The notes under the pieces: model-generated
Seen by the model: the letters and a program-made list of their open reading frames with translations, nothing else
The model's database searches: none
Told to the model about the DNA's origin: nothing
Made by a program: the position numbers and the translations under genes
Shown: piece by piece, positions 1,234-50,900 of the stretch
Position numbering within the stretch: the first letter of the stretch is position 1
How the letters are laid out: the number at the start of each line of letters is the position of its first letter
Source of the DNA: Euonymus europaeus
Taxonomy: Eukaryota; Streptophyta; Magnoliopsida; Celastrales; Celastraceae
Assembly: GCA_963580455.1 (NCBI GenBank)
Contig: OY756967.1
Coordinates: 19,824,022 to 19,888,021, forward strand
Reading direction: 5' to 3'
Length of the DNA: 64,000 nucleotides

Positions 1234-1243
1234 AATCCCAATA

Positions 1244-2791: not shown

Positions 2792-2868
2792 CAATAATTT
2801 TGACTGTGAAAATCAAATATGAATAAAAGAAAGGGAATAGTCAACAACAGCTACAACTAAAAACGTAC

Positions 2869-12462: not shown

Positions 12463-12487
12463 CCGCAAAGCCTTCTTCATTACCTTT

Positions 12488-17012: not shown

Positions 17013-17417
17013 GTTTTTTTTTTGGGTACAAAGGAGGGGGTCAAAACCCACAAAGAACAGACTCAAAATAAAACCTCAGCAATCTCGAACCAATCGAGGC
17101 CATGAAACTCCAACCAAGTCTTCCCAAACCAACTTGTTAATCTCATAGGAGGGACTGTGAACAATAATCATACCCCTCCTATTATGCAACGCCTCATTCG
17201 CCAATTTATCAGCCACTCGATTTCTTTCCCGGTAAACGTGTACCACTTTAACATTCCAAGAGCGAGCAATCAAATTTTTACACTCAACAACCAGATTTAT
17301 CCCCGCGAACAATGGGTTCTCCTTATTTGTAAGCCACTTTGCGACTTCTCTCAGAGATAACGAATGCCTTCTACCTTTTTGGGCTTTTCCCAATATTAAT
17401 GGAGTTTGGTGGCCCAA
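17013..17417 (-). pseudogene. LINE 3' end with RNase H-like domain
   Basis: A minus-strand frame (17076-17417, 113 residues) resembles the C-terminal RNase H-like (RVT_3) domain of plant non-LTR retrotransposons, ending with the typical VYRERNRVADKLANEAL segment. It is followed by a short tail and a run of ten A (minus strand, about 17013-17022), the normal 3' end of a LINE. It is heavily 5'-truncated. A domesticated RNase H-like gene is less likely because of the poly-A. Confidence 0.7.
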
Positions 17418-29100: not shown

Positions 29101-32100
29101 GAATGGCAAGGTGCAACATTGAGGACACAGATTAAATTCCTAGAAACAACCACTTCATATATTATGTGAGGGTAAGATATGCGTACATCTTATTTGTCTC
29201 TGGCCTCGCCCATTGCAGGTGTCTTGTGCACGAATGTTGTTTACCTTTAATAGTATATTTGGATTCCTTTCTTAGGACTCTAGTGTTGGGCCAGTGCAAC
29301 ATGAGGACTTCCTAAAGGTCACCAATTTGGTACACTCATGAGTCATGACTCACAGGGTTAGAGTTGAATTTCTGAATCACTAAGCTAACTCTAAAAGCAT
29401 ATGACAACCTATCCCAAAACCCATGTGCAAAAAACGTATCAAGCATCATAAAAATAAAATAAAAATCAACTTAGAGTAACTTCTGATGCTGTGACCATTC
29501 CTCCATATTCACTGTCGAGCATCCCTCATCTCTAATATAGGGTCTATCAAAAGCATTATCGTTTTGGTGCTCCTTACAAATAGCTTATTTGTACTTCTTT
29601 CTTTTGCCACTTTTGGTGCTTTAAAAAAATTTGCAATTCAAAAAAAATATATATATAAGTCATAGGCCGTTAAGCAAAGTTTTGTCAGAGATTCAAGGAT
29701 TGACAACATAAACTTTGATTGCACACCATCAAACACATGTGATCCAAAATCAGGTACCGGGCAACAAGTATAAGTGAGCACAGCAACAAAAAAAAAACCT
29801 TTCAAATATAAATAAGAAAATAATTCATTGGAGAAAGATCCCTTACATCATGGAGTGATAAAAGCCCAAACTCCTGGGTGATTTCTGTAGGAATTGGATC
29901 AAAATCAGCAGGCAAGGATTCTAAAGCCCTGGAAGTTATTAAAATTTAAACAGTATATATATGAGTTTGCATATCATTACAATTACGAGAGTACAAAAAT
30001 ACAAAGTCAAAACCAAATATTCCAATACTCAAGGAAATTTAAGCAAAATAAGAGTTAACACCAATTCCCAGTTCACAAAAATGATCTCATGAATCATGAT
30101 TACATGATAGATTATATTCAATTTACGCCTTAACAGGTGCATACATTCGTTGGGAATACTGCAAATGCGATGGGCAATAATCTATAGAAGTGACGATTTC
30201 ACTCACTATGGATCTCACTTTTTTTGAATTCAAAAAGCTTTTCTAGGCCAGCATAGTTTACAGTAAAACTACGACAACTTTTTTGGCTCTGCTAATCTCC
30301 AAAGGATGTCATTCTCCAGAAGCAGCATTGGATCACAAAATGAATTCTTCGAATTCCTTTTCTCAATACAATCCTATGCAAAGATTCTTTTCTTACAAGT
30401 GAGATGCAACAAAAAGACATATCAAAACTAAATGAACAATCCTATATGGAAGAAACTTTTGAAACTCTAGTAGGCCAACTCATGAGCTAAGCATTCTATA
30501 TAGAATTTCCCAACTTTAAAGAAGTTGTTCAACAGACGGTACCATCATCCAAGGATTGATAAGATCTTTCACCTGATACCACACATGGGACAAGTTCCAT
30601 ACTACCAATTGAGAACAAACTCATGCTTCAAAAACAGATATCACGTGGAAAAAACACTAATTCACACCTGATGCCACACATGGGACACAAGTTTCATACT
30701 TCCATTGAGACCAAACTCATGCTTCAAAAACAGATATCAAGTGGAAAAAATGTTAATTCAGGTGCATTAATTTGTACAAAGTAAATTCTACACTGCTTGC
30801 GCTGACAAACATAAAATGTCGTAATGATTCTTCCATTAGATCCATGCACTGTATAAAAATTGGCAGTCTTGTAGACACATACAAATGGTAAGAGGTAGAA
30901 ATGTTGCCTTTTCAAATATCCTGCTATAAAACAAAGTTCAAGATATCACTTGCCAACAGTCTTGAAATGGACTAAAACGATAACATCACAGTCCTCTAAC
31001 ACAATAGAGAGAACAAAGTAGATTCCAGTAATTCATTCAAAAGAATAGACTCATAAAATCTTCAAAAGGAAAAAAAGAAGGTAGTACCATATTTCAAACA
31101 ACAGAAAAAGGCATGAGGCACAAACCTTGCAATAATTGTCCGAAAAAAATTAGGATGTACTCCTCCTTTTGAAGGGTATATTGGATATGACCTCCTTTCT
31201 ACGTGAAGAGATGAATCTTTTTCCTCTTTAAGCACATCAATATTATACTCCCTCATTTCAAAATGATCTTTAGTACGCATGGCTCTCACCTAGAAGCAAG
31301 GCACAAGTTTTGAGCAAAATATTTGCACGACAGCTATATAATACTCAGAGAAATGTTCATAACTTTGAAAGAAAATAAATACTATGATGCTGCACTATGG
31401 TTGACAAAAATACGCAAGTTCTTGCTACTATGACCTATGCTCATGTGCAGACCTCAAAGGGCTATATTATGTACTTGTATTGTCTCTGTTACCATTAACT
31501 TAACGGTCCTTTACTTTGTTGCCTATTTAGCTAGCTTAGGTTGTTTTCTTGTTTTCTAGTTGAATGAAAGTTCTCAATTCAAATACTTTGAACTCTCCAA
31601 CTTTATGGTATCAGATGATGTTCAAAATCAAGCTTCAAACAACAATACAATCTCTTCTACCTACACGGTGACTATATCAACAAGTCTAAGTGGGGAAGAC
31701 ATCAACACAGTACAAACATCCAGTGAAAAAACTCTTATAGCAATCAATGCCAACTCTCAATTAGCCTTGAAGCTGAAGACTACAAACTTCACAGCATGGA
31801 GACATCAATTCTTGACTATTCTAAGAGGTTATAGGCTACTGGGATATGTCGATGGCAGTCTTGTCTACCCATCTGACTCAAATCCAGATGCAAATGATCA
31901 TTCGATATGCCAGGACAGCTTGCTGCTGAACGCAATAGTTGCTTCTCCTCATGAGGACTACAATACCACTTTTAGGCGATGTCACAACAAGCAACAAAGC
32001 ATGGACAAAACTGCACAATCTTTTTGCTAACACTTCGAGATTGAGAATTGTGCAACTCAAGCAAAAACTAGTTACTATTCTCAGAGGAAACAAAAAGATT

Positions 32101-35100
32101 AAAGAGTATCTTGGTGAAGTTAAACAAGTTGCTGACGAACTGGCCTTGACTGTCACCCTGTTGAAGATGACGAACTGATTATTTTTATTTCGAATGGCCT
32201 AGGAGCAGAGTACTGTTGAATCTATCAATGGAAGAGAAAATCGCATTTCATATGAAGCAATCAGATCTCTACTTCTAAGCCAAGAAGCCTATCAACAAAG
32301 ACTCGACCAGTATCAAGCTCAACTCTTAGCTGCTGCAAACTTTGTACAAAGGCAGAACACACAATCATCTCGGAACAATCAAAGGTTTTCTGGAAATAAT
32401 CAGTTCCACAAAGGAAACAATCAAAGGCAGCAAGAACACTACAGATCTAACAATCAGCATCAACAGGGATCATTTTACAACAACAATCAGTCCAACAATG
32501 GGGGAAATCGTCAAAGACCAAGAATTTTTTGCCAAATATGTGACAAACCAGGTCACTCTGCAAGGACCGGCAGAAAGCTGGTCTCAGACAATATGTCATC
32601 TGCCAACTATGCGCTGCTGCTAGCTCACAAGATTCCATACCCTCTCAACCTTCAAACAATATTCAACCATGGCTTGTCGACTCCGAAGCAAGTCACCATA
32701 TTACAGCAGATCATGGCAACCTCACCCTCAATTCGGAATATGATGGGACAGATGAGGTTAAAATTGGCGATGGAGCAGGTTAAGTAACACATAAAGGGCA
32801 CACTGTGTGTTCCAAGTCTTAAATGTAATTTGTTATCTGTTCATCAATTTGCTAAAACTAATAATGCTATGATAGAATTTCAACTGAAAACGGGATTTGC
32901 GTTGATGTTAAGGATTTGAAAACGGGAGTATCTTGGGCTCGGGGTCTCTGCCTTGAAGGGATCTATCAGTTCAGACTGGTTCAACCCAAGACAACCTATG
33001 TTGCTCAACAGTCCAGCTTGGATGTTTGGCACAAAAGATTGGGCCACCCCAACTTTGTGTTACTCACTGCCTTAATTAACTCTGCAAACCTCAATTCTGT
33101 TGTTTCTACTTCCCATCAATCCCTGTCTTGCAATTCTTGTGACATTAATAAAATTCATAAATTTCCTTTTCGAATCTCAACTGTTACTAGCACTGCACCT
33201 TTGCAAATACTATACTCCGATGTGTGGGGGCCAACTCCAAAGGCCTCAATTTTAGGCCATAAATACTACGTTTTATTTGTAGACCATTACACAAAATATA
33301 CATGGATTTTTCCTATGTTTCAAAAGTCTGATGTATTGTCTATATTTGTACAGTTTCAAAGGATAATGGAAAGACAACATGGAGCTAAAATAAAGACACT
33401 GACAATGGAGGGGAATACATCAAGTTGTAGACCACTTTAAATCAACTTGGTGTCACTTGGATGCAATCTCCTCCCTACACTTCCCAACATGTGGGTCTAG
33501 CTGAAGAAAGTATTGCCATGTTGTTGAAAATGGCAAAATTCTCCTCAGCCAAGCCCATCCTCACCCCATGTTTTGGTCATTTGCCTTTGACACTGTTGTT
33601 TACCTCATAAACAAGCTTCCTCTTACCTCTACCAAACCACTCTCACCTTTTCAGCTTCTTTATCAATCATCTCCTAGCTACCTAAAATTACGGGTCTTTG
33701 GCTGCCGCTGCCATCCTTGGTTAAAAACCTTACACTCATAATAAGCTTGAACCAAAATCTACACCTTGTCTTTTCTCAGGCGGCTACACCACTCAAAGCT
33801 CCTCTAAATGCTATGCTATGAACCCACTACTGGTAAGTTGTACCTCTCTTGACATGTCCTTTTTTAGAGAACATGTATGTCCTGGCCTTCTACCTCCTCA
33901 ATCTTCTCTCTTTCTCCACCTGATAATTCAGCTTGGATTAAGGCCCTTTACCTACCCCTACCTACCATGGTCCTACTCCTTTAAATCAATCTTGTTCTGC
34001 ACCTTTTGACACCAAAAATTCAACTTCCATTCAAGGACCTTTATCTACCCCTACTTCACCTTCTGACTCCCTCCACATCCGTAGCTCCATCTCCTGCTCC
34101 TCGTCCCCGTTCCATGAACAACATCTATAAGCCCAAATCTCTTTATCACAGCACCATTCACCCTATTCTGAAACCTCTGAACCTCACACTATCTACCAAG
34201 CACTCAAATCTCATCATTGGTCTAAAGCCATGGAAGCCAAGCTCACTGCTCTCCACACCCATTCTATCTAAACGTTCCACCGGATCCCCATCACAAACCC
34301 ATTGGTTCCAAGTGGGTCTTTCATATCAAACAAAACCATGATGGAACCATTCATCAGTATAAGGCCCATCTTGTAGCTCAAGGTTATCTTCAACGGCTTG
34401 GCCTAGAGTACAGTCAGACATTCAGCCATGTCATTAAGCCTACCACCATACGTCTGGTTCTCTCTTTAGCTGTCATTAAGCGTTGGCCACTGAAGCAACT
34501 TGATGTCAATAACGTCTTCTTGCATGGGGCTTTACATGAAACTATCTCGATGAAGCAACTTTCAGGTTTCCTGATGCACAACATCCTCAACATCTTTGCC
34601 TTTTTCAAAAGTCCATCTATGGACTTAAACAAGAACCAAGGGCCTGATTTACTGCTTTTCATGTTGCCCTCTTTAATTTGGGGCTTCCAACTCCAAAGCA
34701 AATACTTCATTATTTATTTATCTTATCCATATTAGGTCCAAACTCGACTTTATTCACAAAGTTACTCATTAAAGGCCTCCAAGTTTTCTGTCATTGGAGA
34801 TCTCTTATATTTTCTAGGGATTGAAGCAATTTGCACCCATGATCAGTTGTTCCTCTGCCAACACAAATACATCTGTGAGATTCGGGATCATGCAAATATG
34901 CTTGGTGCCAAGTCCGCTAACACACCTCTTCCTTCCTCATTCAGTCTCTCTCAACACTTTGGTAACACTTTGACAGATCCCACCTTATACCATCAGTTAG
35001 TAGGAAGTCTCCAATATCTCTCCTTGACAGATCCAAACATCAGTTAAACTGTCAATCATCTAGCCAAGCACCTTGCTAAACCTACAACTGCTCACTGGTC

Positions 35101-38100
35101 TACTCTGAAATGCTTACTTCGTTACCTCAAAGGCACTCTTCATCATGGTCTCATCTAGGGGTGTTCACGAGCCGAACTTCTGAATGTTCAGGCTCGGCAC
35201 GACAGGAAATTTCGAGTTCGAGCTCAACTCGTTTAAGCTCGATTAATTTGACGAGCTCGGCTCGACATGTTAAAAATGTAGATATGAATTTATAATTTAT
35301 GGATTATATACTTATATGTAATATATGTAATATATACTTATATTATAATATATAATTATAAGATTATAATTATATAATTAATAATATTATAATACTTAAC
35401 GAGCCGACTCACTAGCCGAATAGTATAAGTCTCGAATTCGAGCTCGTTTGATAAACGAGCCTATACATGTGTTCGAGCTCGAGCCATAACGAACTCGAGC
35501 CGAGCCTTATTGAGCTCGGCCCTAATAGCTTGATAATGGCTCGGCTCATCAACAGCCCTAGTCTTATCTATCACTCCACCAGCAATAATGCACTTTGCCT
35601 ACTCAGATTCTGACTGGGCCAGTAATCCTGATGATAGGTCATCCAACCCAATCTCCTGGCACTCCAAAAAAATAGAGGGCAATAGCGCGTTCTTCCACTA
35701 AAGTAGAGTATTGTTCTCTGGTTGCCACTGCTTCCTAAATTGTATGGATTACTCAACTTTTCTGTGAGCTTCACATTCCACTGCCTCGAACTCCTCTATT
35801 ATTATGCGACAATCTTGGGGCTACGCACTTAAGTATGAATCCAGTCTTGCACTCCAAAATAAAGCATATTGCTATCGACATTCACTTTCAGCACGTTCTG
35901 GTTCAAAAATAAGTTCTTATTGTTCGGCATTTATCCACTGTGTACCAACTTGCTCACTACGGCTCTTCCACGATTGCACTTTCTTCTTCTCAGAGACAAG
36001 ATCAGCTTGCTCGACAACACCCTGATCTTGTAGGGGCATATAGAAACCACTGGTCAAAAGACCTAACCTTTAGATATATCCTAGTCTTGCTTTCCTAAGA
36101 CCTATGCTCATGTGTAGACCTCAAACGGGCTATATTATGTACTTGTATTATTTTTGTTACCGTTAACTCAACGGTCCTTTTCTTCGTCGCCTATTTAGCT
36201 AGCGTAGGTTGTATTCTTGCTTTCTAATTGAATAAAAGTTCTCAATTCAAATACTTTGAACTCTCCAACTTTTAATTTCAATCCCAATATAAAAGGTAAA
36301 CAACTCTCATGCACAAAGTTTCGCAATAGGCCCAAATTGGGGACATGCAGAATTTACACAAACCTTACGCATGGAAAGGCTTTTTTCAAGAATCGAACAT
36401 GTGACCTCTAGAAGGCGCCCTGACAACTCTACCACTAGGCCACATGTCTGCATGTTATTTTAATCCCAATAAACAAATAAAATACTTAACATAATGTTGC
36501 ACGTTGAACATATTTCAAAACACCAAAGCCTAGGAATATCACAAAAATCTAAAATCCAATCACCAATGTCAACAAGTTTGAGCTCAAATTCAGAGCTTAA
36601 TTTAAAGAGAGAGCAAATTGTCCCAACAGACCTTGACCAACAGTCACATCAACTGTTTTTATCGTGTCATATAGTTTAGGAGCCACCACCTCTAAAAAAT
36701 GATCTCTTTCCAAAAGACTCTTATTTCCAACACACATTATGTCACTTACAGGTTATTACATCACAAATCAATAAGCAGATGTCTTTTTGTAATTGATGCG
36801 AAAGTAACAAATCCATTACAATGATCTGTCCATTTGAGAAGCATCGAGGATATACACGTATATAAGATTCAGAAAAATCAAAAGAAAAAAGGGAAAATCA
36901 AGGCCAGAATCTGTTTAACAATATTTGAGTGTTTGCATCTGACTTCCAGATCCCACTTCCATTTCAGGGCATCGTTTTCCCCACGTTTTGTAAGGGTTAA
37001 ACGTTTATTGAACAAAAGCAGTAAAGATGAGATGCTCTTTAACAGTAACTACACATGAAAGGGAAAGCATTGCATCTGACAAAAAAATTTGTTTACATCA
37101 ATTTTCTTTATATCCTAAAAAAAAAGAGTGCCTCGGCACTTGCAGCCGTGTTGATGATTCATCATAATAAAATGCTCTCTTTGCGCCTCTTGCTCCAAAC
37201 GATCCAACAAATCACCAAAAATAAATTGAATCAGCCACTTAGTCTGGCCCTAATAAATAGTTAAAAACTACTGAAAGCTGAGCATTTAATTTTTTCTCCA
37301 ATGCACTGACAACCACCCACGATATACCCATAATTTTTTAAATTTAACATCAAAAGTCTCCTTGCTTATCTACTACAAAATACAGCAAGAAACACCAAAT
37401 CTCCAGGTTCCTTGCTTAGATGTTGCCTACTCACTAATATTTGACCATTTCTTCGCAAATCATCAGCATTACATATCCTCTCCCAAAAGCTTTTCTGCTG
37501 AAGAACACTACTTCCGTGATCACTCTCGCTTCCAATAGCTTCCCATTATAAATTAAGTCCCACTCCCTCGTCACAAAAATGGTTATTTGTTAAGGATTGG
37601 ATGTATACCATAAATTGGGAAACTCCTATTCACCATGCTTTAAAAATTACTACAGCTAAGAAACATAAGATCAACTGCATAAACAGGGACACCATTAAAC
37701 AACCCAATAATTTGATTGCTTCCTTAATTAAAGGTGATATAATCATAACGGCCAACATATCACCATGCTTTAAAAATTACTACAGATGAGAAACATAAGG
37801 CCCACTGCGTAAATAGGGCACCGTTAAACAACCCAAAAATTTGATTGCTTCCTTAATTAAAGGTGATAGAATCACAACGACCAACATATCACCATGTTTT
37901 GAAAATTACTACGGATGAGAAACATAAGATCCGCTGCGTAAACAGGGACACTGTTAAACAACCCAAGAATTTGATTGCTTCATTAATTAAAGGTGATATA
38001 ATCACAACGACCAACATATCAATAATTTTGACTGTGAAAATCAAATATGAATAAAAGAAAGGGAATAGTCAACAACAGCTACAACTAAAAACGTACCTTA

Positions 38101-41100
38101 CCACTAACACATACAAGGTCTCCCAATTTATGCTTCTCCTGAAGACTCTTAAGAAAAGGCTGACTAGCAAAACGAGTGCCACGGAAAAATTTCTTCAGAT
38201 GCACATAAATTTTTTTCTTTCCTAATCTATCAGTATCATTCACAACATGCTCAAGAGCAGCCTCCTTGTTAGGAATCTCACAAGCAACAACCACTTCAAG
38301 AAACGAAAAGGAGTAGCCAGCCCTGATTCCCCTGGAAAAAGAAAAGAATTGTGATAACTTATCTCCACGGTTAACCATACTAATTGATATTGCATGCACA
38401 CAATAAGGAATCATGTATGATTCCAGAACTAAAGCCAAAACCTAAAGGTGTCAAAAGGCATATAATCTTCTATTAAGGGTATATAATTTAAGGGCCTACG
38501 ACATCATCTTAATCAGAAGTTAGATTTTTTTTTATTCTAACAAGAAATCACAAAAACTTTCATAGAGAATATTAATCATATTCACAATATCAGGATGGCA
38601 TGCTGATATCCCAGGCAAGAGTTCTGCATGCTTCCGTCACTGTAAATGTTCAATTATTGAGAGATTATCATTTATGATATATCAATTCATTAACTGTTAA
38701 AGAACAGAAAGTCCACACCCTTATGAAATATGCAGACTCCAAGTACATAAGGCATTAGACTTCATTTCCCCTCATCAAATGCCTCAGAGAACAGCCAAGA
38801 ACATCTGTAACAAAGGCAAAGCTGGACGAAACTTTCTTGAACCCAACGAAGACACTGAAAATAATATGCATGCATTCAGGGAAACTATTACCACCAAACA
38901 ATAAATATCTGCTTACCTAGAAGATAAGACTTCCCCAACACAAATCATGTATTGTCCATCATTAATTTCTGCCTGGGCATTCTGTAAATCAGCGTAAGTC
39001 CGAGGAAAATGATGCAGCAATTTCCTTAGCTGCACGGAAACAACAAGTACAGTGTGAAGCTAAGACCAATTTCAAGCACAAGTTTTAGAAGGCAGTGCTT
39101 TTATATGGTCTCAAGAGAACCACCGTGTGAAAGCCACAGCTCTCCAGTTGACGACAAAACTTTTTGCTCAATCCAGGAATGCAACTGATAGAATTATCCA
39201 GGGACAACACAACCGATTCAGCATCCAATTCTGACATCAGAACCGCTTTGCTAAGAGATTCAATTGTAAGCCCTGGATCATTGGATTTGTTTTCAACCTC
39301 CAAAGTTACTGACTGAGATGGCAAAGGAAAAGTAACAAAATTGTCATCTTGGTATTCCTTTGGTGTATGAGAATCCGCCTTCAAAATACCGTCAGTTGAT
39401 GGAAAAGTACCACCAAGACCATTTTGAGAGTTCACCTTTGCAGTGGCATACGTAGTACGCCATGGTTCACTGACGGTATTTGAATGAACTCCCTCTGCAC
39501 CCGTGGAAGTAGGAGGAAATTCTTCTAAACTTGAATTTGGTAATAAACTCGTCATTTCAGAGCAAACTGGGTTCTCATCATACAGTGCGACTAAAGGAGA
39601 ACTACCCAAAATGATAGATGGATACTTTCTACATGCCAAGGAAGCATCAAAGCCATCGATAGCAGCCTTAAAACTTGGACCAGATTGATTTCCAACTTGT
39701 TTACTCACAATTAAATCACAAGCGCTATTACTATCCATTAGAACTGATACCTACGAGCAAAGAGAATTGCAATATGTGGATAATTATTCTGACAAAATAA
39801 ATGAGGAACGGAATGAAATTAACACAATTTCCTGATCCTTTACGAATTTTTCGAAGTGTTTTGCCAAGGATGGAAAAAAAAATCTATGACAAAGGAATAA
39901 GTTCAAGCCAAAAGGAACAAAGGAACAATGAAATAAAGTTAATGCAACCCAGATGCAGGAGGGTCTTAACATAGATATGCTATAGCGCAAAAGATGAAAT
40001 AAATACATATTCAAGACAATGAAGGCTACATCGATTGAAACAAATGAGCAACCGCATGCATGCAAATGCCCCTATAAGAAAAGTGTGGCTTGAATAGAGG
40101 AGAAAACATAGAAGCAAATAAAGGCCAAATTGACAGGGGAAAAAGGTTAATTTGAAAATAATATACTTACAGCTCTAGATAGAGCAGAGTCAAACAGCAT
40201 AGTAGGAAACCATATACCCAATAGAAGTCATTCATTAGTCAAATTGCATCATAATGTCGTATAAAGTATAAACAAATTGATTTGACAAGAATTTTAAAAA
40301 AAAATGACCCCCATTATAGATCTGTTAGGAGTTGAGAGAACACAAATTTCTAGTATATTCAATCCTCTTAAATAATTACACAGCAGCTCACTAATATATA
40401 TAGTCACACATACATAGTTCTAGATTTTCCTAGATAATTCTAAAAACATATGGATATATGTTTACCTACATAATTCTAGAATCATCTATACAAGTCTACA
40501 CACTTGCGGATATATGTTTACCTACATAATTCTAGAATCTTCTATACAAGTCCACAGACTTGTGGATATATGTTTACCTACATAATTCTAGAATCTTCTA
40601 TACAAGTCCACACACTTGTCCTTCAACACTCCCCCTCAAGTTGGAGCATAGATGTTACTCATGCCCAACTTGTCACACAACTCTAAGAATTGAGTCCTCC
40701 ACAGTGCTTTAGTAAAGATATCTCCAATTTGATCTTTAGAGCGAACAAACATTGGAAGAATTCGCTTGGTCTTCACTACCAAGTCTCGAATAAAATGGCA
40801 ATCCACCTCAATATGTTTAGTACGCTCATGAAAAATAGGATTAGAAGCAATATACATAGCTGCTTGATTATCACAGAACATTTTCATAGGAGTAAGAGAT
40901 GGAAAACCTATTTCTTGCAGCAAGGACTGAACCCACATCATCTCACAAGCAGTGTGTGCCATAGCACGATACTCGGCTTCTACACTAGATCTAGCAACCA
41001 CATTCTGCTTCTTACTCTTCCATGTAACCAAGTTATCTCCCAGAAAAACACAATAACCAGAGATTGATCTCCTATCAAGAGAATCTCCAGCCCAGTCCGC

Positions 41101-44100
41101 ATCACTAAATCCCTTGATTTCAAAGGATTTAGAACGTTTAAACAATAAACCCAATTCAGGTGCACCCTTAAGATATTTAAGTATTCTACAGGCTGCATTC
41201 CAATGTTCTACCTGTGGATTCTGCATGAATTGACTCACAACTCCAACAGCAAATGAAATATCAGGACGAGTAACAGTAAGATAAATCAATTTTCCTACTA
41301 ATCTCCGATATCTACTTGGATTCTCAAAAGGCTCTCCACCATCTTTGCTAAACTTAACATTAGGATCCATAGGAGTCGAAACGGGTTTAGCTCCCAAGAG
41401 ACCAGTCTCCTGTAATAAATCTGTCACATACTTTCTTTGGCACAGAGATAAACCAAGATTGGATCGAGCTACCTCAATTCCTAAGAAATAACGCAATTTA
41501 CCAAGATCCTTTACACTAAAAAGACCATTGAGAAACAGTTTGAGTGCCTGGATGCCTGCTAAATCACTACCAGTGACTACAATATCATCCACGTACACAA
41601 CAAGAATAATGCAACCACTAGCACTATGTTTCACAAAGACAGAATGATCCACAACTACCTGCTTCATGCCAAAGGTTAACACAGCATTACTGAACTTTTC
41701 AAACCATGCCCGAGGAGATTGTTTAAGACCATATATGGCTTTGTGCAATCTACATACCTTCTTACACTCCCCCTGAGCAACATATCCAGGAGGTTGCTCC
41801 ATATACACCTCTTCTTGTAAATCACCATGTAAGAAGGCGTTTTTAATATCAAGTTGATATAAGGGCCAATCTTTGGTGACTGCAACTGCCAAAATGACTC
41901 GAACAGAAGACAACCGAGCAACTGGAGAGAAAGTTTCAAAGTAATCAACGTCATATGTTTGAGTGTACCCTTTTGCAACTAAGCGAGCCTTATATCTCTC
42001 GATACTACCATCAGGGAGATATTTAATGGCATAAACCCATCGACAACCAACAACATGCTTTCCAGGAGGTAAATCAACAAGAGTCCAAGTCTGATTGCGC
42101 TTTAGAGCAGCAATTTCATCATCCATAGCTTGTTTCCAAGCAGGAATAGTAACGGCTTGATTAAAAGAAGAGGGAAGACGAGTGGCAGAAAGAGAAGTAA
42201 TAAAGGAAGAAAAGGAAGGAGTCAAATGAGAAAAGGACACAACATTGGAAATAGGATGTTGAGTACAAGTCCGTTTACCTTTACGAAGAGCAACAGGAAG
42301 ATCAGTAGGAGAGACTGTAGGAGGAACAACAGGATCTGGGAGCGAAGAGGACAGTGGGGGAGTCGAAGCAGGTTGGTCTTTAAGATGTGGATCTGTTGGA
42401 CCAGCAGATTTAAGCTTGGACCAAGTGCCTCTACTATAAACTTGTAATGGTTTGGGTAAATCATTAGAAGAGGGAGGTAGAGGTAAAGGAACAGAAGAGG
42501 ACTCGGGAACCATAGGAGAGTTAGAAAAATATGGAACATCATCAAAGAAAGTAACATCAGAGCTTACATAATACCGACAAGAAACAGGATCCCAACAACG
42601 ATAACCTTTTTGTGTACGAGAGTAACCAACAAAGATACATGAAGTAGCCCGAGCAGTCAACTTATCATTACCACCACGCAAGATTTGAACAAAACATTTA
42701 CTACCAAAGACATGAAGGGGAAGAGAGAATGCAGGAAGAGAAGGAAAAAGAATAGAAAAAGGAGATTTACCATGTAAAAGAGAAGACGGCATTCTATTAA
42801 TTAAATAACAAGCAGTTAAAACAGCATCACCCCAATAGCATTTAGGAACATGCATATGAAGAAGTAGTGTACGAGCAATTTCAATAATATGCCGATTTTT
42901 ACGCTCAGCAACACCATTTTGTTGAGGTGTATGTGGACATGAAGTTTCATGAATAATACCTTTGGTTGCCAAAAAAGAAGATAAGGGTCCTTTAACATAT
43001 TCAAGAGCATTATCAGAACGTAACACACGAATAGAAGTACCAAATTGATTGTAAATTTCATTATAAAAGAGTTCAAAAATAGGGGCTATATCAGAACGAC
43101 GTTTTAATAAAAACAACCAAGTCATCCGAGAATGATCATCAATAAAGGTTACAAAGTAGAAATGACCACTAAGACTAGCAACACGAGTAGGCCCCCAAAT
43201 ATCAGAGTGCACTAATTCAAAAGGAACAGAACGACGACTAGTAACACGTGGAGGAAAGGAAACACGATGATGTTTACCTAACTCACAAGCATCACATTCT
43301 AACTTAGACAGAGAAGAAGGAACAAACATAAGTTGTCGAAGAAGTTTCAAGGATGGATGCCCCAAACGATAGTGCCACTGAAGAGGAGACAAGGAAGATA
43401 CGTCAAAAGTAGAAAGCAAAGCAGTAGGTGGATCCAAATAATAAAGACCAGCGTGTTCACGACCCCCACCAATCATCTTCTTCGTCTCTAAGTCTTGAAA
43501 AACACAATGAGAGGGAAAGAAAGTGACACTACAGTTAAAGGCTTTGGTAAGCTTACTGACAGACATAAGATTAAAAGGAAAGTTAGGAACATATTGAACA
43601 TGTTGCAGGGAAAGAGAAGGAGTAGGGGATAAAGTACCACTGCCTAACACAAAACAAGGACGTCCATCAGCAACAGTTATAGTTTGAGGGGATGAATTAG
43701 AATCAAAGGTAATAAATTTATCAAACTTTCCAGTAATATGTGTTGAGGCACCTGAGTCAATAACCCAAGGAGACATACCAGAAACATTAAGACATGGAGA
43801 AGTACCTGATTGAGTAAGAGTAGCAACATCTGAAGACGAATATTGTTGAGAACGATGGAGAAGAGAGTCATACTCAGCTTGAGAGATAGTGATAGTAGAA
43901 GGAACAGGTACGGAAGATGAAGAAGCAGCACTAGCAGCACCAGAACTTGGAAATCCTGAACTACCGCCAGAAGAAGGCCGAGAGAGATTATTACGTTCCC
44001 AAGGTTTACCATATTTATCATAACATCGATCAACAGTATGGTTGTCCTTTCCACAAAAGATACATTTACGTACAATTCCACGTCCACGACCACGGCCAAA

Positions 44101-45700
44101 AATTTGAAGAGTGTCATGATCACGGGACAAGTCTGAAGTAGAGATTGGTGAAGATGCAGAGGCAGACATTGGTATGGTAGATAATCAGACACAAACACCA
44201 GAAGCCAAATAGAAGGACTAAGAGAGTACCAGAACAGCAAGTGATAGGAAAATGCTAAAGCAAATTCACAGACAGAACCTGAGAATACCAGCAAGACAGA
44301 ACCTGGAACAACTGGGGAAACAAAACAAATTCACGCCTGAACCACAGAATACCAGACGAAATAGAACACCTACACAGGACGAAACTTCCGACAGAGGCGG
44401 GAAGCAACAAGCGCAACACCACAAACAGAAGCGCAACACCAGAACAACTTCCGAAACAGAAACCAGAGACGAGGCGCAACCACCGCAGCAGAGGCGCGAC
44501 CACACAAGAAGGAGAAACCCTAGATACCTGGCTCCGATACCATGTTAGGAGTTGAGAGAACACAAATTTCTAGTATATTCAATCCTCTTAAATAATTACA
44601 CAGCAGCTCACTAATATATATAGTCACACATACATAGTTCTAGATTTTCCTAGATAATTCTAAAAACATATGGATATATGTTTACCTACATAATTCTAGA
44701 ATCATCTATACAAGTCTACACACTTGCGGATATATGTTTACCTACATAATTCTAGAATCTTCTATACAAGTCCACAGACTTGTGGATATATGTTTACCTA
44801 CATAATTCTAGAATCTTCTATACAAGTCCACACACTTGTCCTTCAACAAGATCAATTAGAAAAGACAAGAAAAAAGAAACTTGTATTCAAGCAGAGAGAT
44901 AAAAAAATTATTTATGCCTGAAGCAAAATGAAGACTAAATCAATTTATGAGGATTAACCAGCACAAAACATTCATGCATAAACACAAATGCACCTTATCA
45001 AGCAGCTTTGAACGATAACCAATGCCAGTTGTCTCATAACCATCTACTTCCTGCAGCAGCTTTTCTGCATATTTATGCCTTGCTCGATAACGTATTTTTG
45101 ATAGTTTGGATAAGAGGAAATTATTAAACCTGTGAATGGCAGCCAGTTAAGAATAGGTCTAAACCTCCACACTCGAGCTGAAAGTGATAACAAGAAGAAC
45201 AATGTACAGTACCTCATTTTTGTACCCAAAGGATTCCAGTATCCTATCTCCACTTTGAAGAAAATATCACTTCTCACTCGATTCCCACCAAAACACTGAG
45301 GATAGGAAAAAAAATCATTTTAAGTACCATTAATAAAATCTAAAAAGAGAAACATTTTACAAAGCTCCAAATCACAATGTCATGGTGTAAACATCCATGT
45401 GCAATGCATTATCCTATAAATTCTAAAAATCTTTCAATGTGAAGAGTATGAAATATTCATGGGTTTTAATCTTCACAAGTTAGCCTTCACCAAAAACTTA
45501 ATGATTATAATCAAACATTGCATGCAAAATCAAACAGTAAGCCAAAAGCCAAGCTCATTGAGAATGGATTTAGTTACAAATTGTGAATGTTATAAAGAAA
45601 CAAACAAACAATGTACTACAGAATCAAAAACACAAAAATGTCTACAGAAATTTATGTATACCGCGCCCCGTGATTGAACAACTGAGAGCGTAAGTGCCAT
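20152..45700 (-). CDS. RECG1: RecG-like DNA helicase, organellar
   Basis: Superfamily 2 helicase of the RecG family. In plants it acts in mitochondria and plastids, remodels recombination intermediates and restrains ectopic recombination. Coding exons, 5' to 3': 45662-45700, 45213-45295, 44994-45129, 39124-39750, 38917-39029, 38097-38331, 31126-31289, 29847-29928, 28720-28809, 28289-28522, 26626-26697, 26254-26403, 26018-26161, 23515-23673, 22368-22451, 20696-21268, 20152-20244. They total 3078 bp and 1025 residues, with phases consistent throughout. Visible features: basic transit-like N-terminus, helix-hairpin-helix/wedge region (about 275-470), Walker A GDVGCGKT 602-609, DEQH 707-710, SATPIPR 756-762, motif [13 protein letters not shown] 908-918, and the RecG-specific C-terminal region. 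All introns are GT-AG except 26162-26253 (GC-AG). A probable non-coding exon lies upstream, ending at 46324. Introns 3, 6 and 13 carry transposons, but the frame is intact. Confidence 0.93.
22436..23060. repeat. Direct repeat copying the RECG1 exon 15 edge
   Basis: About 140 bp at 22436-22575, spanning the 5' edge of exon 15 and its acceptor, recur with scattered changes at 22917-23055 inside intron 14. The second copy keeps the acceptor-like CACAG and the first six codons or so, but then runs into different sequence. It is an exon fragment, not a full spare exon. Confidence 0.8.
24395..24768. repeat. Perfect 374-bp palindrome, no loop
   Basis: The two 187-bp arms are exact reverse complements meeting at 24581/24582 within GCCATGGC. 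I checked the arms base by base and found no mismatch. An RNA read through it from RECG1 would fold into a 187-bp hairpin. Confidence 0.95.
24584..24645. promoter_or_regulatory. Pol III A-box and B-box-like motifs in palindrome arm
   Basis: GGCTTAGTTGG (24584-24594) fits the tRNA A-box consensus. GAGTTCGACTCC (24634-24645) fits the B box, about 50 bp away as in tRNA genes and SINE heads. Being palindromic, the element has the same pair on the other strand. No good cloverleaf could be drawn, so this is not called a tRNA gene. Confidence 0.6.
24793..25166. repeat. Second, imperfect palindrome
   Basis: The right arm 24980-25166 nearly repeats the right arm of the first palindrome. The left arm matches inwards from about 24836 with several substitutions, but its outer 43 bp are unrelated. 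The centre is the same GCCATGGC. Confidence 0.85.
27967..28175. repeat. Direct repeat, two ~80-bp units
   Basis: 27967-28047 and 28096-28175 share TTTTATTACTT(C/A)ACAGAAGGAG and surrounding sequence, 128 bp apart, in RECG1 intron 10. The flanking stretch 26.7-28.2 kb (intron 10) otherwise shows no recognisable gene. Confidence 0.65.
29091..29250 (+). mobile_element. Au-type SINE relic
   Basis: A tRNA-like start (GACCCAGTGGTAGAATGG) and, further on, GGGTAAGATATGCGTACATCTT and CTTGTGCACGAATGT resemble the body of the Au SINE family common in plants. The B box is decayed. It lies in RECG1 intron 8. Ends are approximate and no clear target site duplication was found. Confidence 0.55.
30570..30758. 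repeat. Direct repeat, 2 x 95 bp
   Basis: Two adjacent units starting CACCTGAT(A/G)CCACACATGG at 30570 and 30665, about 85-90 percent alike by eye, in RECG1 intron 7. Confidence 0.8.
31431..31603 (+). repeat. 5' LTR of old Copia
   Basis: Aligns with 36098-36271 (and 870-1043), sharing GACCTATGCTCATGTG and TTGAACTCTCCAACTT at its edges. It is followed within 3 bp by the tRNA-Met primer site. The start may extend a little further left. Confidence 0.7.
31616..36060 (+). pseudogene. Broken Copia gag-pol
   Basis: Pieces in order: gag with a [17 protein letters not shown] segment (about 31760-31810), a zinc knuckle that has lost its last cysteine (about 32520-32565), protease site D-S-E instead of D-S-G (about 32668), integrase with WHKRLGHP (about 33030) and YSDVWGP (about 33215), RT pieces to about 34600, and RNase H around 35600-36020. 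Frames change repeatedly and stops are frequent, and the RT YVDD motif is not visible. Unlike the young element, this one still shows a gag region. Confidence 0.8.
35156..35560. mobile_element. hAT-type MITE nested in old Copia
   Basis: 405 bp with 20-bp inverted ends (TAGGGGTGTTCACGAGCCGA and, on the other strand, TAGGGCTGTTGATGAGCCGA). Flanked by 8-bp repeats GTCTCATC (35148-35155) and GTCTTATC (35561-35568), one mismatch. The 8-bp duplication points to hAT. The arms are rich in GAGCTCG/GGCTCG around an AT-rich core. Non-coding. It splits the Copia between RT and RNase H. Confidence 0.85.
36098..36271 (+). repeat. 3' LTR of old Copia
   Basis: Partner of 31431-31603 and identical to 870-1043 in the left block copy. 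A purine-rich TTGTAGGGGCATA at about 36027-36039 upstream may be the remains of the polypurine tract. Confidence 0.7.
36290..36461 (-). mobile_element. tRNA-derived SINE (right copy)
   Basis: Same as 1062-1233, with AATCCCAATA on both sides (36280-36289 and 36462-36471). In RECG1 intron 6. Confidence 0.75.
37631..38019. repeat. Minisatellite, 3 x ~130 bp (right copy)
   Basis: Same array as 2403-2791, lying 78 bp downstream of RECG1 exon 6 on the gene strand. Confidence 0.9.
40323..40628 (-). repeat. 3' LTR of young Copia (right copy)
   Basis: 306 bp, same as the other three LTRs in the window. Perfect heat-shock-element motifs lie at 40529-40543 and 40585-40599, and a TATA-like stretch near 40394-40403. 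Transcription from this LTR would run into RECG1 exon 4 at 39750. Confidence 0.95.
40636..44169 (-). CDS. Copia polyprotein, gag-truncated (right copy)
   Basis: Identical in translation to 5408-8941: 1177 residues with zinc knuckle, D-S-G protease, D/D/E integrase, YVDD reverse transcriptase and RNase H, but no capsid region. Frame intact. Confidence 0.95.
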   Translation of the reverse strand: MSASASSPISTSDLSRDHDTLQIFGRGRGRGIVRKCIFCGKDNHTVDRCYDKYGKPWERNNLSRPSSGGSSGFPSSGAASAASSSSVPVPSTITISQAEYDSLLHRSQQYSSSDVATLTQSGTSPCLNVSGMSPWVIDSGASTHITGKFDKFITFDSNSSPQTITVADGRPCFVLGSGTLSPTPSLSLQHVQYVPNFPFNLMSVSKLTKAFNCSVTFFPSHCVFQDLETKKMIGGGREHAGLYYLDPPTALLSTFDVSSLSPLQWHYRLGHPSLKLLRQLMFVPSSLSKLECDACELGKHHRVSFPPRVTSRRSVPFELVHSDIWGPTRVASLSGHFYFVTFIDDHSRMTWLFLLKRRSDIAPIFELFYNEIYNQFGTSIRVLRSDNALEYVKGPLSSFLATKGIIHETSCPHTPQQNGVAERKNRHIIEIARTLLLHMHVPKCYWGDAVLTACYLINRMPSSLLHGKSPFSILFPSLPAFSLPLHVFGSKCFVQILRGGNDKLTARATSCIFVGYSRTQKGYRCWDPVSCRYYVSSDVTFFDDVPYFSNSPMVPESSSVPLPLPPSSNDLPKPLQVYSRGTWSKLKSAGPTDPHLKDQPASTPPLSSSLPDPVVPPTVSPTDLPVALRKGKRTCTQHPISNVVSFSHLTPSFSSFITSLSATRLPSSFNQAVTIPAWKQAMDDEIAALKRNQTWTLVDLPPGKHVVGCRWVYAIKYLPDGSIERYKARLVAKGYTQTYDVDYFETFSPVARLSSVRVILAVAVTKDWPLYQLDIKNAFLHGDLQEEVYMEQPPGYVAQGECKKVCRLHKAIYGLKQSPRAWFEKFSNAVLTFGMKQVVVDHSVFVKHSASGCIILVVYVDDIVVTGSDLAGIQALKLFLNGLFSVKDLGKLRYFLGIEVARSNLGLSLCQRKYVTDLLQETGLLGAKPVSTPMDPNVKFSKDGGEPFENPSRYRRLVGKLIYLTVTRPDISFAVGVVSQFMQNPQVEHWNAACRILKYLKGAPELGLLFKRSKSFEIKGFSDADWAGDSLDRRSISGYCVFLGDNLVTWKSKKQNVVARSSVEAEYRAMAHTACEMMWVQSLLQEIGFPSLTPMKMFCDNQAAMYIASNPIFHERTKHIEVDCHFIRDLVVKTKRILPMFVRSKDQIGDIFTKALWRTQFLELCDKLGMSNIYAPT
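44543..44848 (-). repeat. 5' LTR of young Copia (right copy)
   Basis: Identical to 40323-40628. The primer binding site follows at 44527-44542 on the minus strand. Confidence 0.95.
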
Positions 45701-47338
45701 ACGAAACAACCTTAGGCCATAGACAGCACATTCCCAAACAACACAAGCATCGAAGCTGCAAAAACATATTTGAGTGAATCATCAAGGTTAACAAACAACT
45801 TCAACAGACAACTCGAAATCATCAAAGATTTTATTAAGTGCAACTGTGCCTTTCACCTAAATACAATAACGTGTACAACGATTGAAATAGAAATATTACT
45901 CAATCTAGAACGCAAATTCTGAGTGTATACTTAATTTCTTGAAGATATTGTACGAATATATGACGCGGTCCGTCTATTTGAAAAGGAATTCAAAACGAAA
46001 CTGTCATGAAAACCCTAAGTTCACGGCGAACTTTTCCCCAAAAATTCCCAGCAACCAAACAGGGAAATCTGAGAACCATAGATTAGTGAAAAGGAAGGCG
46101 CTAGAGAATGTCTTCAAACACCGGATTACAAAAGAAAGTCCAATACCCAAACGATTTGCCAGCAGCCAATCAAGGAAAGCAGAAAACCAGATATTAGTGA
46201 AAAAAGGAAGCTCTAGAGAACGTCGTCGAACACCAGTTCTCTTAAGAAACTTCAATGCCCCGGAACAAAACAAGGAAAGCTGAGATTAGTGGAAAGGAAG
46301 CTGTAGAGAATGGTGTTACATACCAGATTGTAGAAGAACCTCGATGCCCAAATATTCGAAATGCACGAATAGAGACGTTAGCGAAACCCCCGATGACACT
46401 ACTTTCCCTAGAAATGAAGACGGTTACCACCGTTGAAATTATGTGATGCACGGTGTAGATCTTTCTTATCACCCCCACAATGCCAACTCGAATTTTAAAA
46501 AAAATACATTGAAAAAATCAAAACGGTCACCTACGTTGAGACCGAATAATGAACGGTGGAGATCATGTGGAAGTTTGAAGAGATGAAGCCAAAAGCTTAA
46601 GATAATTCTTTTTATTTGTAGCCGTTGGTTTCTAATCTGAGCTGTCCATCATCCGGGACAGGACAAGTTTTTAGTTTTTTTTTGGTAAATGGTACATAAC
46701 TCCCTAAAATATGACGATCTGACATGGCAGTCAACTTACATAAATGTTATTAAACTGCAGGAATAATTGTCTATATTATAGGGGCCAAATGTCAATACAT
46801 TAAATTATAGGGGTATATTAGCAATGACAATGACAATAACAGGGAACTAAAAATTGAGAAAAACAAGCATTTCTATCAAAACAAGAAAACTATAAGCCAT
46901 TAGTATCATATCCACCAAAATTCTACATATCATGAGACTAAACTAACCGTCAAAGTCAGCATACAACATATCCAAAATACATCTAGAATTACTTCATGTC
47001 CAAAATAACAAAGAACAAAAGAGGAGTTACTACATGAACCAAGTAACAAACAGCTCAAACCTACTTTTGGAGTGGAGATGGTGCCCTAACAAGAGGAATC
47101 TTTGGTCTAAGACAACCACGGTTGATTTTGATAGGAGACTTGTTCCTTGTTGTAGGTTTTAGTGGAAGAAAAGACATAATCGTTGGTGTTGGCGTGAATA
47201 AGGGTGCAGTAGTCCTGGTGGACTGTAAAGATTAATCTGTGGAGGTGAACCTAGTGGCAGACTGCTTGATGGTGCTTTGGTAGAATGAATCTCTGGAGGT
47301 GAATCTAGTGGTGGACTAATATGATGAATCTGTGCAGG
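45701..47338. other. RECG1 5' UTR/promoter region (right copy)
   Basis: Contains the 5' UTR part of the first coding exon (to about 45755), a UTR intron, and a probable non-coding exon from about 46324 to 46.46 kb with donor GTATGT. Upstream is the likely promoter, shared by sequence with the left copy except for C at 46877. Confidence 0.5.
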
Positions 47339-47690
47339 TTAAACCAGTGATGGACTGATTGGTGTAGGATCAACAATCTGTGATAAAGCCTCTGTGTCTC
47401 CATGATCAACAACCTCATCACCTTGTGACAATGCCTCTACCTCTCGACTTGCTTGTCTCAATGCCTCTACCTCTCGTCTAGATGCTAATGCAAGACAAGT
47501 CCTCACATTATATCCCGTCATATTGCAATGCCTACATCTTAGAACTTGTCCTCTTCTGCTCAATGCACCTGTCGTTTGTGTTGGCAACTCATCAAACCCT
47601 CTTATTCTTGCCTTTTTAGGTCTACCAGACTTTCTTTTATATATTGGTGGTTCTAGAATAGTGTACTCAGTACTTGGCCATTGATCTTCC
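47339..47690 (-). pseudogene. MULE transposase C-terminal scrap (right copy)
   Basis: Same as 12111-12462: a basic GRPKKARIRG-like stretch and a zinc knuckle with tyrosine in place of the histidine. Confidence 0.6.
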
Positions 47691-47943
47691 CCGCAAAGCC
47701 TTCTTCATTACCTTTAAAAAGGGGAAGAGAAAAGGAAAAAAAGGGGAAGAGAAAAGGAAAAAAAGGGGGAACACACCTGACATTGTTGATCTTTAAACTT
47801 GATGGAAAGATGTAGTTCTATGATGAATCACGCTCAAATATTAATGAAAATCTCAAACCCCATTGTTGGACATGATTGAGAGAAGAAACAAGCAAAAACC
47901 TAGCAAATAACAAAGTAGAGAAAAGGAAGAAGAATGTTGGCGC

Positions 47944-50900
47944 CTCTGTTTTCAAATGCGTTTTGGAAACGCGTTTTGGTACGTTTTGGAGTGAAAAAAC
48001 ACAGAGGCGTATGTGAAATACCATACCTCGAATGCGTACGTTCTTAGAGAAAAAACGTAAAAACCAGCAAGGCGTGATGCGCCATGATACGTTCGCTCTT
48101 GAGGCAAATTTCCGAAACTACATCGTTTAACAAATTTTGTAACTAAAAAACTAAAATCGAAGACTCTGGCTGGCATACCTCTAGGTCACGACCGTCTCTG
48201 TCTCGCTGGGTCTCTTGTTCCGCCTCTCTGCTGCTAGTCGAGAGTCGCAACTGGTCGACTGTCTCTGCTCGCTAGTCGCGACTGTCTCTGCCTCTTTTGG
48301 TGTCTCGTTCCGCCTCTCTGCTGCTAGTTGCGACTCGCAACTGCTCGACTCTGCCTTGCCGCCTCTTTGGTCGACTCTGCATGAAAGTTGCCTCTCTGGT
48401 CGACTCTGCCTGGAAGCTGCCTCTCTGGTCGACTCTGCCATTCCGCCTCTCTGCTGCTGTTCGCGAGTCGCGATTGCTATTGCTACCGTTCTGCCTCTCT
48501 GTTTCCTCTTCCAAGTTCCACCTAAGGTACCCACTGCCCACTTGCCCAGTACCCACATTTTATTTCGTCACTTTTAAGTAGGTTTATTTTACAATTTACT
48601 TGAAACTTAGAAAAGCAATGTACTCAGAATTGCAGATGCAAAATTGTAATTCGGAATCAATTCTGAATTTGTGTTTGTGGTTTTTTTTTATGATGGAATT
48701 AACGAATGGCTAATAAAAGAGACCCAAAAAAAGATTTTTCTTGGGATTATGCGAAGATAGTTTTGAGTGAGAAGTATTTCAGATGCAGATTTTGTGATCA
48801 CATATGCAGTGGAACTATTACTCGTTTGAAGAATCATATAGCAGGCACTCATTCAAGAATTATGCCTTGCAAAAGTGCTCCTAAAGATGTGGTGTTGAAA
48901 TGTCAACTTGCCCTGCAAAAATTGAAAGACCAAAAACAACTACAAAGAGAGACGATGAATGACATAAGGATGGCTGGAAGTGGGACTGGTAGTGCGAGTG
49001 ATAGTGTTACACAAAATGTTAGTTGTGGTCTGGGTGCCCATGTTCCACAGCCTAGAGTTCGGCGCCTATGGATAAGTTTACAACTTCAAAACCAAGGCAA
49101 ACTAAACTCAACAGCCAATGGAAAAAGGAAGAAAGGAAGGAGGTTTGTCGAAAAATTGCAAGGTTCTGTTTCTCGAAAGCATTGTCATTTAATGTTGTCA
49201 ATGATCCTTATTGGGTTCCTATGTTTGAGAATGTTGCTAACTTTGGCCCCGGGTTCAAGCCGCCCTCTATGCATGAGATGAGGACATGGCTGCTAAAAGA
49301 AGAGGTGGAGGATATTAACAAGCTTAAGGTGGAGCATATGAGGGCATGTCAAGACTATGGTTGCTCTATAATGTCGGATAGTTGGTAAGATGGAAAAAAT
49401 CGATGCTTGATTAATTTCTTAGTGAATAGCCCAGCTGGTACTTGGTTTTTGAAATCAGTGGATGCTTCTGATTGTATTAAGAGTGGAGATTTGATGTTCA
49501 AGTTGCTTGATCAGGTTGTTGAGGAAGTTGGTGAAGATAATGTTGTGCAGGTTCTTGCTGATAATGCTAGCAATTATGTGTATGCTGGAAAGAAGCTTAT
49601 GGAGAAAATAGTGAGGTTATATTGGACTCCTTGTGCTGCACATTGCATTGATTTGATGTTGGAGGACATTTCAAAGTTAAAGGTGTTTGAAGAGACAATT
49701 CCAAAGGCCAAGGCAGTTGTGAGGTTCATATATGGGCATTCTTGGGTGTTAGCATTGATGAGATTTCATACAAATAACCAAGAAATCATTCGTCCAGCTG
49801 TGACTCGATTTGCAACCTCCTTTCTTACACTTCAGAGTTTGTACAAGTAAAAACAAGCTCTAATGTCGTTGTTTAGTTCAGAGAAGTGGGCTTCTAGTAC
49901 TTGGGCAAAGAAGCCAGATGGCATGAAGTGTTGTGGAATTGTATTGCATGATGGGCAATTCTGGGGTAATGTTGCATATTGTATCAAGAGTGTTGGTCCA
50001 CTTGTTAGTGTTTTGAGAGAGGTTGCTTCAGAAGAGAGACCTGCCATGAGTTTTATTTATGAATTGATGGACAGAGCAAAGGAGAAAATTCAAACAAATT
50101 GTGGAAACAACATAAGGAAATATAGTCCAATATGGAAGAAAATTGATGCAAGATGGACTCCACAACTTCATCAGCCTTTGCATGCTGCTGGATATTACCT
50201 TAATACGTCTTTAAGATATGATTTGCATTTTTCTAATGTTGAGGAAGTGAGACAATGATTATTTGAATGCATGGATAGGATGTTGCCATATGAAGATCGT
50301 TTGACAGCGGATATCCAGTTGGATATGTATGACCATGCTAGAGGAAATTTTGGAAGCAGAGTGGCAGTTGATTCTAGAAAGTTACGCTCTCCAGGTATTT
50401 AAATAAATCCTTCCTTCTTTGATTTAAAATTCAAACAGTAGAATTCCTAGTGGTAAATGTATCACACTCTCACTACTTTATTATTTTGTCATAGCTGATT
50501 GGTGGGGGCGTTTTGGTGGCAAAACTCCTGAATTGCAGCGCTTTGCTATTTGTGTTATTAGCCTCACTTGTAGTGCATCAGGCTGTGAGAGAAATTGGAG
50601 TACCTTCGTGGTGGTATGATTCTTAATTTTCAATCTTGCATAAATGATCTTTATTTAGTTACGTAAAACTTATATAATTATAAATTTGTACATTAGATCC
50701 ATACCAAAAAAGGGAATAGGCTGGAGCACCAAAAGTTGAATGCACTAGTGTATGTGATGTACAACACTAGGTTGCATGAGAGGAGCATCAGAAGGAAGCT
50801 GAATGTGGACCCTATTCTGGTCAAAGAAATTGAATCTGATGATGAATGGATTGCAAAAAAAAGAAGACCTTGTTCTTTCACTAGATACTAGTTGGATTGA

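Follow-up and report, generated by a model that had tools for sequence, protein, structure and literature searches.

The window, the 64,000-nucleotide stretch of DNA analysed here, carries on its minus strand a 4526-bp Copia retrotransposon (40323-44848), probably a young insertion of a low-copy family whose LTR acquired an ONSEN-like heat-inducible promoter through one base change and module duplication. This form of promoter would now reside mainly in a BARE-2-like subfamily that has lost gag and relies on relatives still carrying it.

Structure of the element

The LTRs run from TG to CA, and with a 5-bp target-site duplication (TSD), a tRNA primer binding site and a polypurine tract they display the structural marks of Ty1/Copia. 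In a domain search, integrase was placed upstream of the RVT_2 reverse transcriptase within a single pol frame, which is the Copia order. The initial annotation had given the LTR identity as 306/306; this is confirmed, with the TSD AGATC flanking both sides. A protein search with frame residues 60-460 found no near relative among the best 120 of 7986 scored candidates, the top-scoring protein sharing 53% identity and none exceeding 56%.

40323..40628, minus strand: 3' LTR, 306 bp, TG...CA
44543..44848, minus strand: 5' LTR, 306/306 identical to the 3' LTR
40318..40322, no strand: target-site duplication AGATC, left
44849..44853, no strand: target-site duplication AGATC, right
40629..40640, minus strand: polypurine tract CTTGAGGGGGAG
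44527..44542, minus strand: primer binding site TGGTATCGGAGCCAGG, which we take to be of the tRNA-iMet type
40636..44184, minus strand: uninterrupted 1182-aa frame with zinc knuckle, Pol_BBD, gag_pre-integrs, integrase and RVT_2; Gag capsid domain absent

The insertion site in RECG1 and its tandem duplication

Since RECG1 exons lie on both sides of the element, it is intronic and in sense orientation. The intron ends are GT and AG, and the joined frame LLDK-VSVLM agrees with that of a relative (alignment of RECG protein P0242). Downstream of the sense 3' LTR, the exon that begins at 39750 has an in-frame ATG for its fifth codon (39736-39750). The N-terminus of the protein presumably holds an organelle-targeting signal, to judge from the name of its relatives (chloroplastic). 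Among the matches listed for the RECG helicase, the one with the highest identity, ranked second in score, is from Tripterygium wilfordii (94%, covering 87% of the part searched). The neighbouring serine carboxypeptidase also has its best match in this species (89%), and the host thus probably belongs in or close to Celastraceae.

39751..44993, minus strand: RECG1 intron with the element in sense orientation, between an exon ending at 44994 and one starting at 39750
15631..50858, no strand: copy 2 of the tandem duplication, 35,228 bp
5095..9620, minus strand: same Copia element in duplication copy 1 (LTRs at 5095 and 9315)

Positions 1-15630 of the window equal 35229-50858 with a single mismatch, and the second copy of the element in the window is therefore not independent. 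With 29.6 kb of upstream sequence added, a head-to-tail duplication of about 35 kb holding RECG1 becomes apparent, copy 1 of which (34,451 bp) begins near C11:19805201 and ends at 15630. Over 25,693 bp the two copies differ by a single mismatch; over 8,764 bp their identity is 99.99%. Two separate insertions were ruled out as the origin of the two elements, the flanks and the TSD being identical over 15.6 kb and the tandem duplication confirmed upstream. Either the duplication itself arose very recently, or it is an artefact of the assembly or of haplotypes.

Other features were noticed in the same region. Copy 2 of the duplication contains an insertion of 772 bp (24395-25166) that copy 1 lacks. 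It has long terminal inverted repeats (TGTAACGACCCGACC...) and is flanked by the 5-bp duplication CTCAT; it may be either a DNA transposon that inserted once the duplication had taken place or a difference between haplotypes. Intronic RECG1 sequence holds three tandem copies of a 130-bp unit at 37630-38021 (also 2402-2793). The remnant of a different Copia lies on the plus strand at 34226-36290; in it, RVT_2 (34226-34735) precedes an A+T-rich stretch and sequence resembling an LTR, the far end being judged by eye. A DUF659 frame at 49389-49847 (also 14161-14619) is, we assume, typical of a hAT transposase remnant.

The LTR modules and their heat-shock elements

In element orientation, the U3 region consists of 56-bp units at LTR nt 10-65, 66-121 and 122-177, with 93-98% pairwise identity, and of a fourth, decayed unit in register at nt 178-233. 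The initial annotation had described three such tandem units, carrying two perfect and one near-perfect heat-shock element (HSE) upstream of a TATA-like box, and the LTR coordinates bear this out. On the plus strand the perfect HSE reads TTCnnGAAnnTTC, as first annotated. Roughly 130-195 bp separate the two perfect sites from the TATA-like box that follows them.

40564..40619, minus strand: unit 1 (distal), 56 bp, 3' LTR
40508..40563, minus strand: unit 2, 56 bp, 3' LTR
40452..40507, minus strand: unit 3 (proximal), 56 bp, 3' LTR
40396..40451, minus strand: degenerate unit 4, 3' LTR, 62-64% identity to units 1-3
40586..40598, minus strand: perfect 3P HSE GAAGATTCTAGAA, LTR nt 31; 5' LTR twin at 44806-44818
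40530..40542, minus strand: perfect 3P HSE GAAGATTCTAGAA, LTR nt 87; 5' LTR twin at 44750-44762
40474..40486, minus strand: near-perfect HSE GATGATTCTAGAA, LTR nt 143, one mismatch; 5' LTR twin at 44694-44706
40418..40430, minus strand: decayed HSE GGAAAATCTAGAA, LTR nt 199, two mismatches; 5' LTR twin at 44638-44650
40391..40403, minus strand: TATA-like CTATATATATTAG, LTR nt 226, downstream of all four HSEs

When the LTR, with its tandem copies collapsed, was shuffled by dinucleotides, at least one perfect HSE arose in 0.12% of the shuffles, a figure that by itself amounts to moderate evidence, the motif having been picked by eye. Outside the LTRs, the unique part of the window that does not belong to the element (43,844 bp) has one perfect HSE, and an additional one lies inside the pol region of the element at 42941. 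Between units, the bases of the HSE are no less variable than the other bases (Fisher 0.42-0.51). An exact search of viral contigs with a 35-base piece of the unit gave no match.

Harbouring at least one 3P or 4P HRE in its LTR, the element belongs to the HRE-bearing class of Copias as an excerpt of the defining study has it (PMC5059998). The parallel with ONSEN drawn in the initial annotation stands as far as complete 3P HSEs and the promoter logic are concerned. It fails for CG and CHG: the LTR contains one CG and 4+3 CHG sites, and the ONSEN-type absence of both is not found. Against the window background these sites show no clear depletion, 10% of 171 GC-matched windows being as low in the sum of CG and CHG, and 19% in CG alone. 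Heat responsiveness of the LTR is nonetheless a good prediction, and it is likely that the element works like ONSEN.

LTR states in the host genome

A single LTR search of the host genome (443 Mb, 30 contigs) returned 41 matches, and the family counts are thus lower bounds. The 36 pieces fetched, which cover the 37 matches outside the window, yielded 33 with units, which together with the two window LTRs make 35 classified LTRs. Three pieces without a recognisable unit (L041, L042, L044) were dropped before counting, and the LTRs of duplication copy 1 were not recounted. One truncated LTR of 123 bp (C12_19.1) was counted as one-unit and excluded from the alignment of proximal units.

The initial annotation had proposed to compare repeat number among family members, and this comparison reveals that the number varies and that the perfect HSE looks derived. 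None of the nine one-unit LTRs has a perfect HSE; eight of them read GATGATTCTAGAA and the ninth carries a further change. Among the 11 two-unit LTRs, six possess a perfect HSE: five are perfect in the distal unit only, one solo LTR is perfect in both, and the remaining five have none. All 15 three-unit LTRs carry a perfect HSE, and 14 of them carry two, in the order GAA, GAA, GAT, the exception being a solo LTR in which one of the two perfect sites is mutated. The proximal unit reads GAT in 15/15 of these LTRs.

What sets most distal units apart from proximal ones is the very base change by which the 3P HSE becomes complete, and three-unit LTRs hold this completed unit in two copies. We infer that GAT is the older state because it is the one found in one-unit LTRs and in proximal units. 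The simplest order would then start from a single ancestral 56-bp module whose HSE was incomplete, with an intact TTCnnGAA but GAT as its first triplet, pass through a first module duplication to two units, continue with a distal T to A change (GAT to GAA) completing the 3P HSE, and end with a second duplication of the completed distal module. A simple nested tree of unit number was also tried and is unsupported, since leader and U3 disagree and a 1.2-kb pol piece is indecisive.

Lability of the unit number

In three of the 14 elements that retain both LTRs, the two LTRs hold unequal numbers of units, and the 5' LTR is the longer one every time.

C3:3202948-3207946: 5' LTR three units, 3' LTR two; matching target duplication
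C2:31692240-31694131: 5' LTR two units, 3' LTR one; matching target duplication
C1:27868215-27870520 (C1:27.87 Mb): 5' LTR two units, 3' LTR one; matching target duplication

The two LTRs of the C3 element have small lineage-specific changes in common, and the extra unit therefore arose, or was lost, within its lineage. In the C1:27.87 Mb element the extra unit measures 58 bp and starts with the first bases of the LTR itself; it is an independent duplication. During replication, completion of the 5' LTR draws on plus-strand strong-stop DNA, and slippage at this step would explain the 5' bias, three cases of three being too few for proof. As new U3 copies derive from the 3' LTR, units gained in the 5' LTR should not be inherited, so that the gain in the gag-less clade must have come about by another route. 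In the initial annotation, tandem amplification had been read as a hint of selection. This argument does not hold: units are gained and lost within single elements, amplification alone is consequently no sign of selection, and the HSE positions show no stronger conservation than other positions of the unit.

Loss of gag and mixed ancestry

The frame of the window element lacks PF14223, the Gag capsid domain of autonomous Copias. Only 40 residues precede its zinc knuckle, against a median of 240 in the 79 knuckle-bearing relatives among the best 120 listed; at least 180 residues precede the knuckle in 73 of these and at most 60 in three. The capsid region is absent, with one common junction, from all six elements that have three units in both LTRs.

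44098..44100, minus strand: gag-deletion junction, common to the six elements with three units in both LTRs; compared with a gag-bearing relative, the deletion removes about 668 bp

Gag-like sequence is kept in 8/8 other elements, of which the internally deleted C2 and C1:27.87 Mb copies retain the first part only; the longest open stretches in these eight gag-bearing 5' pieces range from 155 to 397 aa. For the association between gag loss and three units in both LTRs, a test that ignores kinship gives Fisher 3e-4.

The six gag-less elements form one clade in the tree of a 1.2-kb 3' internal piece (93/94), where inner branches are mostly weak (1/11 starred), and in the leader tree (99/99). The leader tree sets them apart from a clade (100/99) holding the perfect-HSE two-unit elements, and a single clade comprising both groups is rejected by the leader (AU p 0.0019); for the 1.2-kb pol piece the values are p 0.195 and 0.189. 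In U3, the two groups have in common the completed HSE and a change in the proximal unit. Given that the leader does not group them, the shared perfect HSE calls for either U3 exchange or parallel gain. A reverse transcriptase template switch between two co-packaged family RNAs would explain this mixed ancestry and could also have produced the gag deletion in the branch with most HSEs; the alternative would be a parallel gain of the same base.

Lacking a capsid gene of their own, the gag-less elements occupy no fewer than six sites, which makes Gag from relatives the likely helper, and their spread suggests that they very probably use the Gag of the gag-bearing copies. Loss of gag, an open pol, recent insertions and gag-bearing relatives in the same genome correspond to the BARE-2 type, the open pol frame having been checked whole in the window copy.

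Age of the insertions

Each of the 14 elements with both LTRs is bounded by matching copies of a 5-bp TSD, and the short flanks differ from one element to the next; they therefore represent 14 separate insertions. The differences between their LTRs are as follows.

Three units in both LTRs (per 306): window 0, C11:21.4 Mb 0, C8 1, C14 1, C4 0, C1:5.6 Mb 0
Per 249: C1:26.75 Mb 1, C5 0, C3 2, C10:18.2 Mb 7
Other compared lengths: C2 1/193, C1:27.87 Mb 3/191, C10:2.96 Mb 1/194, C11:17.17 Mb 9/191

Six independent insertions with 0-1 difference corroborate the recent activity initially deduced from the window copy. Substitution rates of 1.3e-8 to 7e-9 per site per year allow an age of up to 0.4-0.7 My for 0/306 differences, and the rate of 2.5e-9, which may suit a woody plant, up to 2 My. 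When pooled, gag-less elements display 2 differences in 1836 bp, gag-bearing elements with a perfect HSE 3 in 747, and elements with no perfect HSE 21 in 1018. In this set, which was found by likeness to a young LTR, the elements whose two LTRs both have a perfect HSE are younger than those lacking it (Mann-Whitney p 0.004, 9 vs 5; p 0.063 if the gag-less clade is counted once). Two of the elements that lack a perfect HSE altogether are fairly young as well (1/193 and 1/194). Four of the five elements with identical LTRs in the genome are gag-less.

Proposed function of the modules and alternative readings

On heat, trimers of the HSFA1/HSFA2 type may bind the two perfect HSEs and drive synthesis of full-length RNA, as in ONSEN. 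The gag-less branch would then be a non-autonomous, BARE-2-like passenger, with a predicted heat promoter stronger than that of its helpers. An extension of this scheme, which we put forward tentatively and regard as rather doubtful, is that of a 'parasite's parasite' out-promoting its heat-activated helper: a template switch would have joined the HSE-improved U3 to the gag-deleted body, and any selective advantage would come from the extra HSE module raising transcription in heat bursts, so that the passenger would have come to dominate the elements with identical LTRs.

As to readings without heat function, neutral slippage with lineage succession would have unit number drift and the youngest lineage carry, by chance, three units and two HSE-like strings. 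The unequal LTRs, one of them through the 58-bp unit starting at the LTR terminus, indicate that units are frequently gained and lost and have more than one origin; moreover, conservation specific to the HSE is lacking, and many motifs could have been picked by eye. We nevertheless hold this explanation to be unlikely, because the base change between distal and proximal units is exactly that completing the 3P HSE, because the completed unit is doubled in three-unit LTRs, and because perfect HSEs are as rare by chance as the shuffles indicate.

It is still less probable that the units are enhancers answering another signal (defence, wounding, tissue culture), with the HSE match being secondary. 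The part of each unit outside the HSE is as conserved as the HSE itself, and the Tnt1 U3 boxes are described, in an excerpt, as binding defence-induced factors (PMC3316501); yet the unit possesses a full 9-of-9 HSE, and the recurring change between units falls within it. Finally, that the intronic copy acts as a heat-inducible alternative promoter of RECG1, its transcript yielding from the ATG at 39736-39750 a protein without the N-terminus, is very improbable: the sense orientation of the element ahead of that exon would permit it and excerpts on ONSEN mention start sites arising from its insertions, but the same source has most full-length genic insertions spliced out (PMC12112155), and the present insertion is young.

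Comparison with known systems

The preferred reading, a heat-inducible promoter assembled from duplicated modules, finds its closest counterpart in ONSEN/ATCOPIA78 of Arabidopsis (Brassicaceae). Both are Ty1/Copia elements with complete heat-response elements in the LTR, and in both a TTCnnGAA proto-element was, or would have been, improved by duplication, as excerpts on ONSEN have it (PMC3907296, PMC5059998). An A+T-rich LTR and the occurrence of intronic insertions are further points in common (PMC3907296, PMC5059998, PMC12112155). In the excerpted data, the ONSEN LTR is bound by HSFA2 in vitro, measures 440 bp and is devoid of CG and CHG (PMC3907296). It combines a 4P with a gap HRE, whereas the element described here has two separate 3P HREs in 56-bp modules, a 306-bp LTR and the CG and CHG sites counted above. 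The likeness concerns promoter logic, membership of the ONSEN family proper being defined by RT nucleotide identity above 80% (PMC5059998).

The excerpted survey of Brassicaceae Copias links predicted 3P HREs with up to about 100-fold and 4P HREs with up to about 1000-fold heat induction, gap and step types having mostly failed, and derives the ONSEN HRE from duplication of a TTCnnGAA proto-HRE (PMC5059998). There, COPIA37, TERESTRA and ROMANIAT5 exemplify the recurrent, mostly species-specific gain of 3P/4P HREs in Copia LTRs; those of COPIA37 come from a TTC-rich stretch and those of TERESTRA lie at different LTR positions, unlike the single substitution in a repeated module of changing number proposed here (PMC5059998). 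Outside Brassicaceae, excerpts of a review mention LTR elements raised by heat in adzuki bean, cotton and moso bamboo (PMC9780303). Further differences from ONSEN are that the host probably belongs to another plant order, that the young branch is gag-less and that the heat response is predicted. One genome, of a plant with its nearest protein matches in Celastraceae, displays the apparent intermediates of a promoter gaining complete HSEs (incomplete module, duplication, completing base change, further duplication). The ONSEN story becomes testable as a repeatable route, for which natural one-, two- and three-unit LTRs are ready reporter constructs.

BARE-2 of barley, the subject of 'Life without GAG', is likewise Gag-defective; it has reportedly been described as a 'parasite's parasite', with Gag help proposed to come from relatives. 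To our knowledge, it is not known for heat elements, whereas gag loss here accompanies extra HSE modules. With promoter strength tied to a gag-less passenger, competition between helper and passenger under stress becomes measurable.

The BII boxes in U3 of tobacco Tnt1 also bind inducible factors, which, as far as the excerpt goes, are defence-induced and not heat-shock factors (PMC3316501). RAC at soybean Rhg1 is, according to an excerpt, another Copia in an early gene intron inside a tandemly repeated block (about 36 kb), and differs by its antisense orientation and intact 1438-residue polyprotein (PMC6712407). Searches of the open-access literature brought up no title or abstract that reports such an HSE module series or this Copia family. 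Copias with heat elements are a kind already known; the modular 56-bp route, its visible intermediates and their coupling to a gag-less branch are apparently new, at least to us.
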